From the IMG/VR virus record IMGVR_UViG_3300044678_000020, positions 1 to 20,119 of that record: 20,119 nucleotides of DNA. The stretch is one strand, 5' to 3'. Positions 8,381-16,053 of the stretch are shown here, piece after piece. Position 1 is the stretch's first letter; every line of letters starts with the position of its first letter. A program made the position numbers and the translations under genes. This DNA is from a virus. The notes under the pieces were generated by a model. That model was not told the DNA's origin. It saw nothing but the letters and a program-made list of their open reading frames with translations, and searched no databases.

Positions 8381-8788
8381 TTAGCTAGCTAAAACACGAA
8401 CATTGAACTCGGCAGCTAAGTAGGTGATGTCCGAAATAGTTACCGAGCCATAGTTCGTCATTTCAGTCACTATGACAGAAAAGGCCTTACCGCCAAGTGA
8501 CTTATCTGATTCTACCGCAAGGGAAACAGAGGAATCTCCTGTGCTTGCACAGAACGCATCAAGATTGCGCTGTGCCGTTCTCTCATCTACCCTGCCAACA
8601 ATTACCTGAACAGCGAAGTTGTATTCGGTCATTCCACGCTGAAAGTCTTGGTGATATTGAACGCGAGACAACTGGACTATGGCAATTGGTGGCGATGGGT
8701 TGTCTGGAATTATCGGAGAAACTCTTAGTCCTGGAATGGTCGAAAGATTAGTAGCGAGACCATCGCGCAGTTCTGTAATTGAGGCCAC
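8381..8788 (-). CDS. tail terminator / tail completion protein
   Basis: A 135-residue protein between the head-tail connector and the tail tube, where siphoviruses encode the terminator ring that caps the tail and joins it to the head. It has an N-terminal helix (I-T-E-L-R-D-G-L-A-T-N-L-S-T-I-P-G-L), a P-D-N-P-S-P-P loop, then alternating strands and a helix (D-E-R-T-A-Q-R-N-L-D-A-F-C), which agrees with the gpU-like alpha/beta fold. The start is GTG at 8788, sharing one base with the stop of the connector (TAGTG), so it probably depends on coupled translation. Confidence 0.76.
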   Translation of the reverse strand: MASITELRDGLATNLSTIPGLRVSPIIPDNPSPPIAIVQLSRVQYHQDFQRGMTEYNFAVQVIVGRVDERTAQRNLDAFCASTGDSSVSLAVESDKSLGGKAFSVIVTEMTNYGSVTISDITYLAAEFNVRVLAS

Positions 8789-9381
8789 TATGCCATCCTG
8801 ATTCGGCGGTATGGCTCGACTAAGTGTTGAACATCTGGGTCAAGTCGGAAACCAATTCTCATAGAACCAAGCTCACCAGAGATGATGCCAAGTGGAGAGT
8901 CGAGACGCTTGAAGATTCTTGAGGCAAGAATGACAGTTGCCTGAGTAATTGCTACTGGAACTGCTGACCAGCCCCATGTTCCAGTTATGCGAACTGTTGC
9001 CTCGCCCTGTCGGTCTGGAAACAGGTAATCCTCAATTGCTCGAATTTGATAATAGGCAGTTGCAATTCCACCCGCTCGACCATTCAGAGGCTCAGCTTGC
9101 CAATCCTTAGCAGCCCAGGTGGTGTCAAAGGTTTCTCCATCTTCTGATGTTTGAACCTGACTTAGAGTGATGAAGTCTTCTGTCTCACAGACGAAGTTGT
9201 CTATCGGTGAGAAAAGTTTTGTCGCAGTTCCAGCGTTGTAAAAGTATCTTTCGGTGTATGAGTCAATTTGGCGTGATGCCGACTCAATTGCCATTTCTAA
9301 AGCCTGGTCGTCTATTCCATCGGCAATTCGGAGAGCTGCCTTGATTTGGGTTAGAGTCGCATATCCGTTAACGATTGCCAT
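8788..9381 (-). CDS. head-tail connector protein (gp6-like)
   Basis: A 197-residue protein with the features of the phage gp6-like connector that forms a ring under the portal: a start like T-L-T-Q-I-K-A-A-L-R-I-A-D-G-I-D-D-Q-A-L-E-M-A-I-E-S (shown in part) with two helices, then I-D-S-Y-T-E-R-Y-F-Y. A Trp/Gly beta region (I-T-G-T-W-G-W-S-A-V-P) and a C-terminal helix (A-T-V-I-L-A-S-R-I-F-K-R) complete it. It is preceded by a strong GGAGGAATC ribosome binding site. In most related phages it comes directly after the capsid gene; here three sugar-related genes lie between them. Confidence 0.85.
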   Translation of the reverse strand: MAIVNGYATLTQIKAALRIADGIDDQALEMAIESASRQIDSYTERYFYNAGTATKLFSPIDNFVCETEDFITLSQVQTSEDGETFDTTWAAKDWQAEPLNGRAGGIATAYYQIRAIEDYLFPDRQGEATVRITGTWGWSAVPVAITQATVILASRIFKRLDSPLGIISGELGSMRIGFRLDPDVQHLVEPYRRIRMA

Positions 9382-9395
9382 GATTCCTCCAGCCT

Positions 9396-10190
9396 CTATT
9401 CTACCGACATTGTTCTGACCATCTCCGAAATCATCGGCCCTCTGAGGTAGCGACTATTGCGCCAGAGCAGTCGGTTGGTGTAGCTGAATTTGGTGGCAAG
9501 TCTGCGGTCAATCATGTTCGTTATGGTTGGTATCACTTCGATATCATCTCTACCTAGTCGCTTGGCAATCATCTTCACTAGGTCGTATTTGGAAACCCAG
9601 TCATCGGGGACTAGGTGCTGAGTTCCAGCCAATAGGTAATTCTGTTTCATTATCCCTGCGACCACCCTTGCAAACGCCTCAGTTGTCACGCCGTTCCAGT
9701 AGTGATTGACAAAGCCGTTTATCCTTGCACCTTCGGGTTGGTTCTTTACCCAGTCAAATAGCGAGCCTGTGCCGTTCGCTCCAATTATCGAGCATCGCAG
9801 ATTGAGCCAGTTCGCTGCTGAGACCTCACCTCGCTTCTTGCTTACGCCGTAGGGGTCGGTTGCGTCTCGCTCGGAGTCTTCTGTATAGAAACCCTTGTCA
9901 CCTGCAAACACGCAGTCAGTTGCAATCTGAACGAAGTAGAGGTCTTTGCGAGTTGCGAGCAGGTGAGGAAAATCTCCGTTTATCTTTTCCAGCTTTTCGA
10001 CTGTTGGCTTCTTCTGTGGGATTACGCCGATGCAGTTAATCACAACATCGCCTTCGGTCAGCATGAATTGGTCAATCGAGTCAGGTGCTTCATACTCCAA
10101 GCGTGATGGTGCAATCAGGTCAAAAGAAGAAAGCTCTTTGACCATCGCCGAGCCAAGCATCCCCTCAGCTCCCAAGATGAGAACCTTCAC
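9396..10190 (-). CDS. NAD(P)-dependent sugar-nucleotide reductase/epimerase (RmlD-like SDR)
   Basis: A 264-residue extended short-chain dehydrogenase. It has the Rossmann dinucleotide loop G-A-E-G-M-L-G (residues 7-13), N-C-I-G after strand 4, T-D-C-V-F (91-95), and the catalytic Y114-G-V-S-K118 pair, so the active site looks intact. The arrangement resembles RmlD (dTDP-4-dehydrorhamnose reductase) and related sugar-nucleotide 4-reductases or epimerases; its substrate cannot be named from the sequence. The start is GTG, with a GTGA overlap on the stop of the upstream glycosyltransferase, so the two are coupled. It probably makes or modifies an activated sugar used by the two glycosyltransferases. 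The family is common in bacterial envelope loci, so acquisition from a host is likely. Confidence 0.85.
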   Translation of the reverse strand: MKVLILGAEGMLGSAMVKELSSFDLIAPSRLEYEAPDSIDQFMLTEGDVVINCIGVIPQKKPTVEKLEKINGDFPHLLATRKDLYFVQIATDCVFAGDKGFYTEDSERDATDPYGVSKKRGEVSAANWLNLRCSIIGANGTGSLFDWVKNQPEGARINGFVNHYWNGVTTEAFARVVAGIMKQNYLLAGTQHLVPDDWVSKYDLVKMIAKRLGRDDIEVIPTITNMIDRRLATKFSYTNRLLWRNSRYLRGPMISEMVRTMSVE

Positions 10191-10882
10191 CGAAGCGACC
10201 TAGCAAGTTGTCTAATCTGTTCCATGCCCTCTGCTCTTTCATCAGGCCCAACCAATGCTCCAGAGGTTGTCATGCGGTCATAACCTCTGTCAAAAACTAT
10301 CCTCATCGTAGGGGTGTTGTAAGGCTTTACCAGACCAGTTTTTCTCATGTGTAGCGCGAGACCCCAGTCGGCGAATCTTATGCCCTCAGGGAAGCCTCCA
10401 GAGGCTTGCCAGAGGTATCTGGTCATAGGGTTAGCACCGCCTAATTCGAACTCATAATCAAGGGTCTCTGGCAGCCACTTGGTCTGTTGGACATAATCTG
10501 TGCCTTTGGTTCTAAGCCAGTCGCAAACTAGGTTGCAACCTGCCGCCTCTGCCTCAGGTATCGAGTTCAAGGCTTTAGGCAGGAAGTAGTCGTCAACATT
10601 ACAAATGGCTATCCACTTGCCAACGCATAGATAGATTGCTTGATTCCAATACTCCGCATAGCTATTCAGGTTTTCTTTTATTACCCTGACAACACCCTCA
10701 TTTGGAACGCTTGCTTTGACAGCTTCCCAGTTCTTGTCATCGGTGACAATGTTTATCTCAAAAGGCTTGGTCTCAAGCGACTGCACTCCTGCCCACCATT
10801 GAGGCAGAAATTGAGAATAACCATCTCCCCAAATTGCTAGGGGCAGAGAGATTAGACTAGGGTCTTGAGGAATGGTAGCCAA
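10187..10882 (-). CDS. glycosyltransferase, GT-A fold (family 2-like)
   Basis: A 231-residue protein with the pattern of a small family-2-like glycosyltransferase, which moves a sugar from a nucleotide donor. The N-terminal half alternates strands and helices (L-P-L-A-I-W-G-D-G-Y, then I-N-I-V-T-D-D). It ends in I-A-I-C-N-V-D97-D98-Y, the metal/nucleotide-binding DxD-like element. A second acidic motif, F-A-D-W-G-L-A-L-H-M-R (about residues 170-180), occupies the place of the acceptor-side ED motif. No membrane segment is seen, so it should be cytosolic. The start is TTG at 10882, overlapping the upstream gene by 31 bases and lacking a clear Shine-Dalgarno, so the true start may differ by a few codons. 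Acceptor unknown; a virion protein or a host envelope glycan are both possible. Confidence 0.8.
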   Translation of the reverse strand: MATIPQDPSLISLPLAIWGDGYSQFLPQWWAGVQSLETKPFEINIVTDDKNWEAVKASVPNEGVVRVIKENLNSYAEYWNQAIYLCVGKWIAICNVDDYFLPKALNSIPEAEAAGCNLVCDWLRTKGTDYVQQTKWLPETLDYEFELGGANPMTRYLWQASGGFPEGIRFADWGLALHMRKTGLVKPYNTPTMRIVFDRGYDRMTTSGALVGPDERAEGMEQIRQLARSLR

Positions 10883-12054
10883 TAGTGATTCCAGACCTTT
10901 ACATCGTCAAACTGCTGAGCAAACTTGCGTGAGGTTTCTGAATAGCGACCTTCCCTCTTAGAGACTTCATAAGCCTTTTCAAGCTGTTGTGCAATTGAGG
11001 GTATTGACGGAATTTTCCACCATGCAGCTTGAGCCTCATCCCAGAACAACTGTCCCGAAACTTTGAACCCATCCTCTGCCACTAGGTCTCTTGGTCCAGT
11101 CCAGTCAGATGCGATGACCCTGCAACCCGATGCCTGTGCCTCGATGATTGGAATTTCAAACCCACCTCCGAGTGAAACCTGAAGTGCAACATCGGCTGCT
11201 GAGTAAAAGCCAGCTAGGTCGTGTCGGTCAATTCCCAATCGGTAGTCAATTGGGTCGGGGAAGATAACAGAACTCATGTCAAGCCCGCAAGCCTCGACTA
11301 ATCGTGGCAAGTGAAAGCCACCATAAACGCCCTTGGGTTCGGTGTGAACATACATATAAGCGTTTGGGTGATTCTGCCTAAACATCGAAAAAGCCATAAA
11401 CACAGTATCGAATGATTTTCTGTGAACTGATTTGTTTGCTTTGTTAGCGGCATTGACCACAACAAGAAAGTCGTCTTCCTTGAGTCCTAGAAATTCTCTT
11501 GCGCCTTGCTTGCCAATTTTGTTAGTTGGCTTAAAGGTAGAAACTGTGTCAATCGAATGAGGGATATAGATTCCCTCGACTCCAACATCATTAAGTTGCT
11601 CCATGCCGAAGGGTGACATTGCAATCGGCGTTACATTGTCTTTGTCTAGCCAACGCTTGACCGCAGGGGGCATCGAGATATGGTCGAGCGGTATCCAGCT
11701 CAGAATGTTTGGCCACTCATCTGTCGGCCACATCTCAGGCTTCAGAACCCAAACATCACAAAGAGTCAGGATGTAATCTTTCCAATCCTTCTTTGCCATC
11801 TGCATCTTGTGTCCAACTGCAAGTGCATCTTGAGACATTGGGTCAAAGCCTCTTGCGTAATGCGGAATTTCTCCGTAAGGGGTTTTGAGCGTTGAGTTGT
11901 TTCCTTCTAGCCCATAGTTAGAAACATGGCCAACATTGACTCCATGCTTTACAAGATTGTCAACGAGATAACCAATCTGTTGTCCATATCCAGTCGGCTG
12001 ATATGGGCTGTTGGAATAGGTCGTGACAGTAAGGTCTAATTGTTCTGGTTTCAT
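10852..12054 (-). CDS. glycosyltransferase, GT-B fold (family 4/1-like)
   Basis: A 400-residue glycosyltransferase of GT-B build. The N-terminal domain has Y-Q-P-T-G-Y-G-Q-Q-I-G-Y-L (residues 18-30), the glycine-rich acceptor loop common in this group. The C-terminal donor domain has V-V-N-A-A-N-K-A-N-K-S (about 199-209) and G-G-G-F-E-I-P-I-I-E-A-Q-A-S-G (296-310), the site of the EX7E nucleotide-sugar motif. The second Glu (E305) is present, but the first position (297) is Gly, with a Glu at 300 instead. It heads the sugar cassette, directly after the terminator of the capsid gene, with an AGAAAGGAAAC ribosome binding site. No membrane segment is visible. It may glycosylate a virion protein or modify a host glycan; the acceptor is not shown. 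Confidence 0.85.
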   Translation of the reverse strand: MKPEQLDLTVTTYSNSPYQPTGYGQQIGYLVDNLVKHGVNVGHVSNYGLEGNNSTLKTPYGEIPHYARGFDPMSQDALAVGHKMQMAKKDWKDYILTLCDVWVLKPEMWPTDEWPNILSWIPLDHISMPPAVKRWLDKDNVTPIAMSPFGMEQLNDVGVEGIYIPHSIDTVSTFKPTNKIGKQGAREFLGLKEDDFLVVVNAANKANKSVHRKSFDTVFMAFSMFRQNHPNAYMYVHTEPKGVYGGFHLPRLVEACGLDMSSVIFPDPIDYRLGIDRHDLAGFYSAADVALQVSLGGGFEIPIIEAQASGCRVIASDWTGPRDLVAEDGFKVSGQLFWDEAQAAWWKIPSIPSIAQQLEKAYEVSKREGRYSETSRKFAQQFDDVKVWNHYWLPFLKTLV

Positions 12055-12080
12055 TGTTTCCTTTCTAACCCCACAATAGC

Positions 12081-12107
12081 AAAATCCCCCGACTTTTGGT
12101 CGAGGGA
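12081..12107 (-). terminator. intrinsic terminator after the major capsid gene
   Basis: On the minus strand TCCCTCGAC / GTCGGGGGA (12107-12099 and 12093-12085) forms a 9-position stem with one A-C mismatch around a CAAAA loop, followed by TTTTGC (T-run 12084-12081). It starts 22 bases after the capsid stop and ends 27 bases before the next start. It should stop or attenuate transcription into the sugar cassette. Confidence 0.75.
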
Positions 12108-12129
12108 CTTGCTAGATATCGGAGGTTGA

Positions 12130-13403: not shown

Positions 13404-13440
13404 GAAAACCCCAGAGGTAGAAAGGAAGACCCTCTGGGGT
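13404..13440 (-). terminator. intrinsic terminator upstream of the major capsid gene
   Basis: On the minus strand a perfect 10-bp stem, ACCCCAGAGG / CCTCTGGGGT (13440-13431 and 13417-13408), encloses a 13-base loop and runs into TTTTCCTTT. It lies 23 bases after the stop of the 74-residue gene. The stem is strong; the loop is larger than average and the T-run is interrupted, so partial read-through is plausible. Confidence 0.75.
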
Positions 13441-13688: not shown

Positions 13689-15211
13689 TAGTTCCTCTTT
13701 AGTAGTAGGTCAAGTTGCTTGCGCTTTAGGTCTAGCAGGTTTGGCTCTTCGGTCTTTTCTTCTTCTACCTGCGTCACAGGGGAAAGAGTGTCAACAACCT
13801 TCTTGATTAGCTCTGCCTCAGAGTCACTTAGGTCTGCGCCTTCTTCTAGCTTTAGAACTGCATCAGCTAGTTCGTCAGCGTCAACCTGTGCGCGAGTGGC
13901 TGCCTTGTCTAATGAGCGAACCATTGCTTCGGTTGAAGCATATGCTGGAAAAGCCACAATACTTGCCTCAAATAATCTGACCGACTTCAGAGTTCTTTCG
14001 GTCATTTCATTGTTCCATGAATCCTTGATGACAGAGAATCCGAATGACATCTTGTTGAGGTCTCCTCTGCGGAGTAGCTCTGCCATGTCTCTGCCGTCAG
14101 TTGTGTTTGGCAAACTTGCCTCTACCCTGAGACCAACCTCGTCTTCATAGAGTTTCATTGTGCCCGAGCGAGTGGATGCAAGAACTCGGCCTGTGTCGTG
14201 ATTGACCAAGAGCTTGACATCGTTGCGAGAGCGTAGCGAACGGCGGAATGCGCCAGGTTCGATAGTCTCAACGAATCCACCCAAGTCTTCTGATGGTGAG
14301 TTGAACTTTGCAGCATAACCAACGAAAGTCATGCCATCGCCTTCGGCTCTTAGCTCAAAGTCAGCTTCAAAGTTTCTAGTTTCGTGTTTCATCTTTGCTC
14401 TCTCTTGCTCCGCTTCTAGTCTAGCGACCACACCTTCTGCGTAAGTCTGTGCGCGTCTTGCAGAACGCTTAGTTGTTCCGCCACCCCAAAGTGCCATTGC
14501 AACAACACCTGGCGATGGGAAGTTTTCTGAATTTGGGTTTGCGTCAGGTGCGTCAAGGTCTCCCAAGTGTCTTGCAATCCAAGCCGCAATGCGAACCCAC
14601 TTGTCGGCCGAAACATTGCCCTCAGCCATTGAGCGAGCTTCGCGGATTGTGCGGTCAACTAATCCGTCTCCGCCAAGCCCTTCTGAATACCATTGCAAAC
14701 CTCTGCGAGCAGACGCTCTCATGTAGGCAGGTGCTTCTAGGTTTACCTGACGAACCTCGTCATCGTCTTCATCATCTTCTGGCTCATCCATTGGTTCTGG
14801 TAGCGGGTCAATCTTTGTGAGAGTTGAGAACTTGTGTCCGACATAGACATCGGTGTCTTCCCAGCCACCCTCTACTCTTTGGTAAACCTGAATCAAAGCA
14901 GCGGGGTCATCGGGAGTGCCTGTGATTGTGAATGAGGAATCGGGAACATTTATTGTGCCATCTCGCTCAATCTGGACAATCTCGCCTCTGGCTCGACCGC
15001 CTGAAGTATTCCAAGAAACATAATCGCCAACCTCTAACTCAGTTGGTCTTGCTCTTTCTCCTCCTGGCTGAATGCCCTCTGCGATAGAGACAGCGACCAT
15101 CTGGTCAATGGCATCTTGCTTGGTTGTGTGACAGCCGATTACTTCGCCGTCTTCTTTGATAGTTGCCCATCCAGCGCAGTCAGGTGATGAATCAGTTATG
15201 AAGTATGGCAT
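13688..15211 (-). CDS. capsid maturation protease (S78) with three N-terminal fused domains
   Basis: A 507-residue fusion, far longer than the roughly 200 residues of a lone HK97-type prohead protease. In order: residues 1-50 a small cysteine-containing module (M-P-Y-F-I ... G-C-H-T-T-K-Q-D-A); about 58-135 an Hva1-Tudor-like barrel (V-G-D-Y-V-S-W, G-R-A-R-G-E-I-V-Q-I, T-G-T-P-D-D-P-A-A-L-I); an acidic linker at 139-153; about 157-268 a helical domain (A-P-A-Y-M-R-A-S-A-R-R-G-L ... P-S-P-G-V-V-A-M-A-L-W-G); 278-435 the S78 protease; and 440-507 a charged helical tail. The catalytic site appears intact, with N-H338-D, K-M-S389-F-G-F and the downstream F-E415-A-S. It should cut the capsid delta domain inside the prohead and then itself. 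Similar fusions are known in actinophages, where the N-terminal part has no settled role. Confidence 0.88.
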   Translation of the reverse strand: MPYFITDSSPDCAGWATIKEDGEVIGCHTTKQDAIDQMVAVSIAEGIQPGGERARPTELEVGDYVSWNTSGGRARGEIVQIERDGTINVPDSSFTITGTPDDPAALIQVYQRVEGGWEDTDVYVGHKFSTLTKIDPLPEPMDEPEDDEDDDEVRQVNLEAPAYMRASARRGLQWYSEGLGGDGLVDRTIREARSMAEGNVSADKWVRIAAWIARHLGDLDAPDANPNSENFPSPGVVAMALWGGGTTKRSARRAQTYAEGVVARLEAEQERAKMKHETRNFEADFELRAEGDGMTFVGYAAKFNSPSEDLGGFVETIEPGAFRRSLRSRNDVKLLVNHDTGRVLASTRSGTMKLYEDEVGLRVEASLPNTTDGRDMAELLRRGDLNKMSFGFSVIKDSWNNEMTERTLKSVRLFEASIVAFPAYASTEAMVRSLDKAATRAQVDADELADAVLKLEEGADLSDSEAELIKKVVDTLSPVTQVEEEKTEEPNLLDLKRKQLDLLLKRN

Positions 15212-16053
15212 TAGCCGAGCCTCGCATTCACAGTTATTGTTCCCCCTAGTGCAACCGCTGTGCCGTTTATTGTGATGCCACCTGCGGTTGTGTTTATGCT
15301 GATTGTTTGAGTTTCAGCGTTGTAAACAATCGGCGATGTTGCAGCTACAACTCCAGATGGCCCCTGTGGGCCAGTTGCTCCAGTTGCGCCTTGCGGTCCT
15401 GTTGCGCCTGTTGGTCCTGTCGCCCCAGTAGCTCCTGTCGGTCCTGTTGGTCCAGCAGGTCCAGTCTCACCCTGAATACCTTGTGGGCCTTGTGCGCCAG
15501 TCGCGCCAGTAGGACCAGCAGGGCCAGTTGCACCAGTATTGCCTGTGTCACCCTTATCGCCTTTGTCGCCCTTGAGTCCTTGAATGCCTTGCTCGCCCTG
15601 AATACCTTGTGAGCCTTGTGGTCCTGTTGCTCCCGTTGCTCCCGCTGGTCCTGTGTCCCCTGTGTCACCCTTTTCCCCCTTGTCGCCCTTTACACCTTGA
15701 ATACCTTGCGGACCTGTTGCACCTGTCGCTCCAGTTGCGCCAGTCAATCCTTGAATACCTTGAATGCCTTGCGTTCCCTGAATGCCTCTTGGAATTACAA
15801 GATTCAAAGTTTGATTAGGAGCTGTGCCTGTAATTGTTGCACCAGCATCTCCGCCAGCTGCACTAGCGGTTACAGTTCCAATTGTTAATGTGTTGGCAGG
15901 TCCAATCTGACCCTGTATTCCCTGCGGACCTTGCGGTCCTGAATTGCCTAGCGTCACAGATGTAGAAGTTTCAATGACCGCAATGTCAACGCTAGTTTCT
16001 GTAACTGTAAGCGTGGAATTGGTTTCAGTTATTGCGACAACTGACCGAGACAT
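15211..16053 (-). CDS. collagen-like protein among head genes
   Basis: A 280-residue protein with uninterrupted Gly-X-Y triplets from about residue 90 to 234 (near 48 triplets) and a short run at 39-51, rich in G-P-Q, G-A-T, G-I-Q and G-D-K. Residues 52-89 form a non-collagen insert (L-T-I-G-T-V-T-A-S). The N-terminal 35 residues are Thr/Val strand-like and the last 45 residues look like a small beta domain that could start trimer folding. By known collagen geometry (about 0.29 nm per residue) the main rod would be near 40 nm. Phage collagen-like proteins are usually tail fibres. This one sits between portal and protease, linked by TAATG to both neighbours, so a head fibre or capsid-surface spike is a serious alternative. 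The role is inferred. Confidence 0.85.

Follow-up and report, generated by a model that had tools for sequence, protein, structure and literature searches.

Why would a phage keep sugar-handling enzymes between its capsid gene and its head-tail connector? The question is raised by a virus record of 20,119 bases, treated here in its entirety as the window, whose phage genes lie on the minus strand in the order terminase, portal, collagen-like protein, S78 protease, HK97-type capsid, three sugar genes, connector, tail terminator, major tail protein and tape measure (Table 1). A preliminary description of this DNA, made from its letters, recognized two glycosyltransferases and an RmlD-like reductase inserted into the late structural block. 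The open reading frames and Pfam profiles agree with it on the positions, on the overlaps (31 bases between GT4 and GT2, 4 bases between GT2 and the reductase) and on the enzyme classes, and the placement is confirmed by Phage_capsid upstream and Phage_connect_1 downstream. The sole named relative across the structural block is the Pontimonas phage phiPsal1 (MG835450), which comes from an actinobacterium culture, and WhiB genes are present in 15/15 related records tested. The window is therefore most likely from an aquatic actinophage. A foreign base composition was considered for the cassette and gave no signal, its GC content being 48.0% vs 48.3% in the remainder of the window. Elsewhere in the window, the adjacent genes at 759-1289 and 1292-1774 share the N-terminal motif ASITFSSIPATYxDL; they look like paralogues and are possibly tail or fibre parts.

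Table 1. Position and basis of the features discussed; coordinates are those of the window unless residues are given.
Feature	Position	Strand	Basis or remark
Head-tail connector (gp6-like), downstream border of the slot	8788..9381	-	Phage_connect_1 1.9e-6; phrog_442 7.2e-19
Junction TAGAATAGAGGCTGGAGGAATC before connector start	9382..9403	-	Returns with small changes behind different modules of the clade
RmlD-superfamily NAD(P)-dependent sugar-nucleotide reductase, 264 aa, second gene of module	9396..10190	-	
GT2-family (GT-A fold) glycosyltransferase, 231 aa, first gene of module	10187..10882	-	Glycos_transf_2; alignment; fold matches
Exchangeable GT2-reductase module	9396..10882	-	dS contrast; identity steps at about 10.85 and 9.4 kb
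GT4-family (GT-B fold) glycosyltransferase, 400 aa	10852..12054	-	Pfam, PHROG, structure model, 67/67 loci
GT4 motif GGGFEIPIIEA	about residues 296-306		
Terminator-like hairpin, capsid/GT4 interval, U-rich 3' arm	12077..12114	-	z-score -4.5 vs shuffles
HK97-type major capsid protein, 390 aa	12130..13302	-	Phage_capsid 2.8e-54; phrog_10 9.5e-71
Second terminator-like hairpin, just upstream of capsid gene	about 13405-13440	-	CCCCAGAGG...CCTCTGGGG, then TTTT
Collagen-like gene, portal/protease interval	15211-16053		

Profile and fold together place the first of the three proteins in family GT4. It matches Glyco_trans_1_4 (PF13692; 1.1e-8, 35.8 bits vs a curated cut-off of 27) as well as PF00534 (29.8 bits, cut-off 26.4). 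Its structure model (pLDDT 82) has the two-domain GT-B fold, and the top PDB matches are GT4/GT-B enzymes (MshA, BshA, PimB' and 3oy2, with Z about 27-33 over 330-350 residues). With Foldseek, the top match is 3oy2, the GT4 enzyme of chlorovirus NY-2A, at 15% identity. The EX7E motif has an unusual form in the window's clade, GGGFEIPxxEA, in which the first Glu has become Gly and a Glu stands three residues further on. Sister lineages retain GEGFGxPxxEA, and the second Glu is invariant. Because the first Glu is Gly in this clade, we only infer catalysis by the window's GT4, and the change possibly reflects an altered donor sugar. The near relatives L061 and L062 have different states at this position. 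In a pattern-based scan of 84,980 species genomes, which distant relatives may escape, no close cellular relative of GT4 was found among the matches listed; the best long match there is 29% identical, with higher values over short stretches only. A host-derived cassette is rejected on this basis, since the cellular GT4 matches listed are weak and partial. Homologues confined to host envelope loci would have counted against the preliminary description, and the matches listed do not show this pattern.

The second protein matches Glycos_transf_2 (9.3e-6, 26.1 bits vs a curated cut-off of 23.3), and its acidic DxD-like motif, Asp97-Asp98, is invariant in an alignment of 14 relatives. Its structure model (pLDDT 82) matches GT-A sugar transferases. 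The fucosyltransferase WrtF ranks first in the fold search, with many enzymes of other specificity below it, and no sugar specificity is claimed. The third protein matches RmlD_sub_bind above the curated cut-off (1.3e-17) and 2ggs at 1.8e-9. Its GxxGxxG, Thr-Asp and YxxxK motifs are intact, and the alignment shows conservation of GAEGMLG/GASGMLG and of Y114-K118. It falls far below the RmlD equivalog cut-off (TIGR01214, 60 bits vs 224), and its identification therefore stops at "RmlD-like"; a finer substrate call, such as rhamnose, is not supported. The partner enzymes RmlA and RmlC were sought as PF00483 (nucleotidyltransferase) and PF00908, and both are absent from 13 related phage records, some possibly incomplete, in a search whose controls were positive. 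The activated precursor must thus be supplied by the host, and the complete pathway envisaged in the preliminary description is not borne out.

How constant is this arrangement? With the capsid and each of the sugar proteins as queries, 67 distinct loci were gathered that show both the capsid and the connector. A GT4 gene lies between the two in all 67, phiPsal1 included, down to about 47-51% capsid identity; these counts rest on loci that similarity-ranked searches drew from metagenome contigs, some of them fragments, and the samples are not independent. Among control phages that have related capsids and belong to other lineages (phiC31, Shawty and Mae-JY02), none has sugar genes at the capsid-connector junction. 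The genes that follow GT4 vary, with about 22 layouts among the related loci. Besides GT2 and the RmlD-like reductase, they encode an NAD-epimerase, a cytidylyltransferase, additional GT-like proteins, several methyltransferases and a few unassigned proteins, and nearly all that are recognizable are transferases, sugar-nucleotide enzymes, the cytidylyltransferase or methyltransferases. One accessory protein of 319 aa (L056, 1097-2056; L113, 8291-9250) combines a methyltransferase-like domain with a C-terminal HGDLTTHNTILQGDDVQFIDWFD, which resembles a kinase catalytic loop. Two anomalies were seen in the gathered loci. The capsid gene of L055 (2643-3813) seems to be broken into two ORFs, the result of either a frameshift or faulty assembly, and L026/L093 carry two capsid genes in inverted arrangement on one contig, probably an assembly chimera.

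The window's own GT2-reductase pair bears the marks of such variation. In comparisons with the homologues of other phages, dS within the pair is mostly 0.16-0.55. The GT4 and connector genes on either side give about 0.4-2.9, and about 0.8-2.9 in most of these comparisons. At the stop codon of GT4, identity jumps from about 75% to 93%, and it falls back at the start of the connector. The low dS relative to the neighbors and the sharp breakpoints indicate that the pair has moved between phages as a unit. The junctions are short conserved stretches: the 3' end of GT4, inside which the next gene starts, and TAGAATAGAGGxxGGAGGA ahead of the connector. Different modules also lie between flanks that are 94-98% identical in DNA, as in L048/L050 (epimerase vs cytidylyltransferase) and L181/L186, and swaps between flanks so alike appear to be recent. 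All three sugar genes have a dN/dS of mostly 0.04-0.14, which points to strong purifying selection on each. As judged from these comparisons, GT4 is a core gene of the lineage, and just the GT2 and reductase genes act as an exchangeable insert. The description of an inserted trio therefore holds for these two genes, GT4 being a fixed neighbor of the capsid, and the idea that the three travel together is contradicted by the layouts, the dS values and the identity steps.

GT4 and capsid alleles are not strictly co-inherited. In L015/L018 and L015/L023, the GT4 genes are 94-97% identical beside capsid genes that are just 73-77% identical. A capsid acceptor would then require either an enzyme that tolerates this variation or a conserved modification site. 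The collagen-like protein was also considered as an acceptor. Collagen repeats occur in 7/7 testable loci with the GT2-reductase module and in 0/3 with a methyltransferase module, and are mixed elsewhere, an association that is suggestive and confounded by ancestry. As a general acceptor the collagen-like protein is rejected, since GT4 occurs without it in phiPsal1, L051, L057, L101, L108, L113, L114 and others.

The linkage extends beyond this type of capsid. A search seeded with the relative of GT4 in Microcystis phage Mae-JY09 (PP395641) yielded 78 new GT4-carrying loci, 75 of them with enough upstream sequence to be read. The window-type capsid precedes GT4 in 24 and a different capsid family in 38, so that the transferase gene is capsid-linked in 62/75; among the remaining 13, some have other head genes nearby. 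In the 38 second-type loci, the capsid follows scaffold, head-morphogenesis and portal genes. No sequence relation between this capsid and the window-type capsid was detected by hhalign (probability 5%) or BLAST, and it is called a capsid on the strength of weak PHROG matches (7e-5), its place in the gene order and the annotation deposited with Mae-JY09. In that phage, the order is capsid, GT4, a weak GT-like gene, NAD-epimerase and head-tail adaptor. Since the same family sits behind two sequence-unrelated capsids, linkage to the head module is a property of the GT4 family and not an accident of one genome.

Expression of the cassette may be set by the hairpin between the capsid and GT4. It is seen in nearly all relatives, which keep its GC stem and U-rich arm, and 5 of its 14 pairs have changed on both sides among 23 sequences. 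A standard terminator scan does not list it, because the stem splits its U-run. The hairpin is probably a transcription attenuator, which would allow much capsid and little enzyme to be made. Given the second hairpin upstream of the capsid gene, that gene may be a transcription unit of its own between two terminators.

The best-supported reading is a late virion glycosylation cassette with a constant and a variable part, producing sugars that differ between strains, and we give it a probability of about 0.6. The capsid protein would be produced in bulk, and read-through past the hairpin would yield the sugar enzymes at a low level, together with the head and neck genes. Drawing on a host nucleotide sugar, GT4 would place the first or core sugar on a virion protein, the likeliest acceptor being the capsid protein made next to it. 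The reductase would complete a host-supplied 4-keto nucleotide sugar and GT2 would attach the completed sugar, the pair in this way extending or altering the glycan made by GT4. As the module is exchanged as a block between related phages, an exchange visible in the loci themselves, the outer sugar would become strain-specific. The strongest support for a virion target is the positional constancy with two capsid types, along with a cargo largely of sugar chemistry; the position of the genes by itself does not establish the virion as the target. The proposal of virion glycosylation is hence retained from the preliminary description, and its collagen-like rod is given up as a general acceptor. 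More tentatively, the locus could be a widespread "glycan-typing" slot of aquatic phages, in which a capsid-linked GT4 lays down the core sugar and exchangeable modules switch the outer one; by exchanging cassettes, populations would vary the glycan on their particles independently of capsid type; we lean slightly against this wider formulation.

The main rival to virion glycosylation is the late modification of a host cell-envelope glycan, which would, for example, stop released virions from sticking to debris or exclude other phages, with modules that match strain-variable host glycans. We consider this unlikely, while taking it seriously. The fold matches of GT2 include the envelope-polymer transferases TarP, TarS and RmlT, and those of GT4 also include WaaG, TarM and PimB', but a common fold reveals no acceptor. 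The phiPsal1 host has many cell-wall glycosyltransferases, and its wall sugars are said to be based on polyrhamnose (PMC6106888). Glycosyltransferases have been noted in Planktophila phages, with superinfection exclusion as one suggested role (PMC10202952). Late expression, however, is poor timing for exclusion, and the genes lie in the head block behind two sequence-unrelated capsids, not among early or lysis genes. It is very improbable that they are mobile morons, gathered in a recombination-tolerant slot and serving a function unrelated to the virion: modules do swap between conserved junctions, yet all three genes are under purifying selection, GT4 is invariant and the cargo is largely limited to sugar or methyl chemistry. 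Least probable of all, and less likely than envelope modification, is glycosylation of phage DNA against host nucleases, the other role suggested in Planktophila phages (PMC10202952) and echoed by a viral "DNA alpha-glucosyltransferase" among the weaker fold matches (rank 48), against which stand the late head-block location, accessory genes suited to building a glycan (a cytidylyltransferase and several methyltransferases), the absence of thymidylate-synthase/hydroxymethylase (PF00303) from 15 related, partly incomplete records in a search whose positive controls worked, and the absence of TET/JBP (PF12851) in a search that had no positive control signal.

Few phages, chiefly phages of Mycobacterium, are known to glycosylate their virions with enzymes of their own. 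In the freshwater actinophage lineage considered here, the capsid-linked transferase is invariant; it turns up again with a second capsid type, and the genes that follow it are swapped in the manner of a serotype locus. Should the particle be the target, free-living aquatic phages, which face no antibodies, would vary their sugar coat. The purpose of particle glycans would then become testable, with Mae-JY09 as a named isolate. The locus suggests, too, that among the phage glycosyltransferases now classed as auxiliary metabolic genes, some serve to build the particle.

Several known systems share parts of this arrangement. No description of a capsid-connector sugar slot or of its module exchange was found in the literature, within partial coverage. 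The nearest named genome, phiPsal1, has capsid, GT4 (45% identical to the window's), GT2 and neck protein in the same order; it differs in having a reverse-strand methyltransferase between the two transferases and in lacking the RmlD-like gene, and its paper does not discuss a sugar cassette (PMC6106888). In Mae-JY09, a GT4 32% identical to that of the window likewise follows the capsid and precedes an NAD-epimerase and the head-tail adaptor region, whereas the capsid has no detectable sequence relation to the window's. Cluster O mycobacteriophages such as Corndog encode an O-methyltransferase, two glycosyltransferases and a GlcNAc-transferase inside the block of virion genes, and the poor detection of capsid peptides led to the proposal that the capsid is modified (PMC4351075). 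The likeness lies in several glycosyltransferases and a methyltransferase among virion structural genes. The Corndog block is however situated between portal and protease, no RmlD-like reductase is mentioned for it, and no mycobacteriophages appeared among the phage matches to the window's genes. PMC11256854 cites glycans on the major capsid proteins of Che8 and Rita; Che8 and other cluster F1 phages resemble the window in having phage-encoded transferases, with glycans reported on their capsid proteins, but in the F1 phage that this paper describes the transferase genes lie near the 3' end of the genome and not at a capsid-connector junction. PMC12619734 likewise cites Mycobacterium phages that carry glycans on their capsid and tail-tube subunits.

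The closest logic is, by analogy, that of the chloroviruses, with constant core transferases and a variable remainder acting on the major capsid protein. PBCV-1 and NY-2A encode the glycosylation of their own major capsid protein; the core of the glycan is conserved, its outer sugars differ from virus to virus, and all chloroviruses share two transferases, the others varying (PMC5408694). These are large algal viruses, and their likeness to the window's GT4 is one of fold, at 15% identity, in a family whose folds are very common. The modular sugar locus tied to the capsid gene is real and selected; should the virion prove to be the target, it would represent a new form of virion glycosylation by phages.
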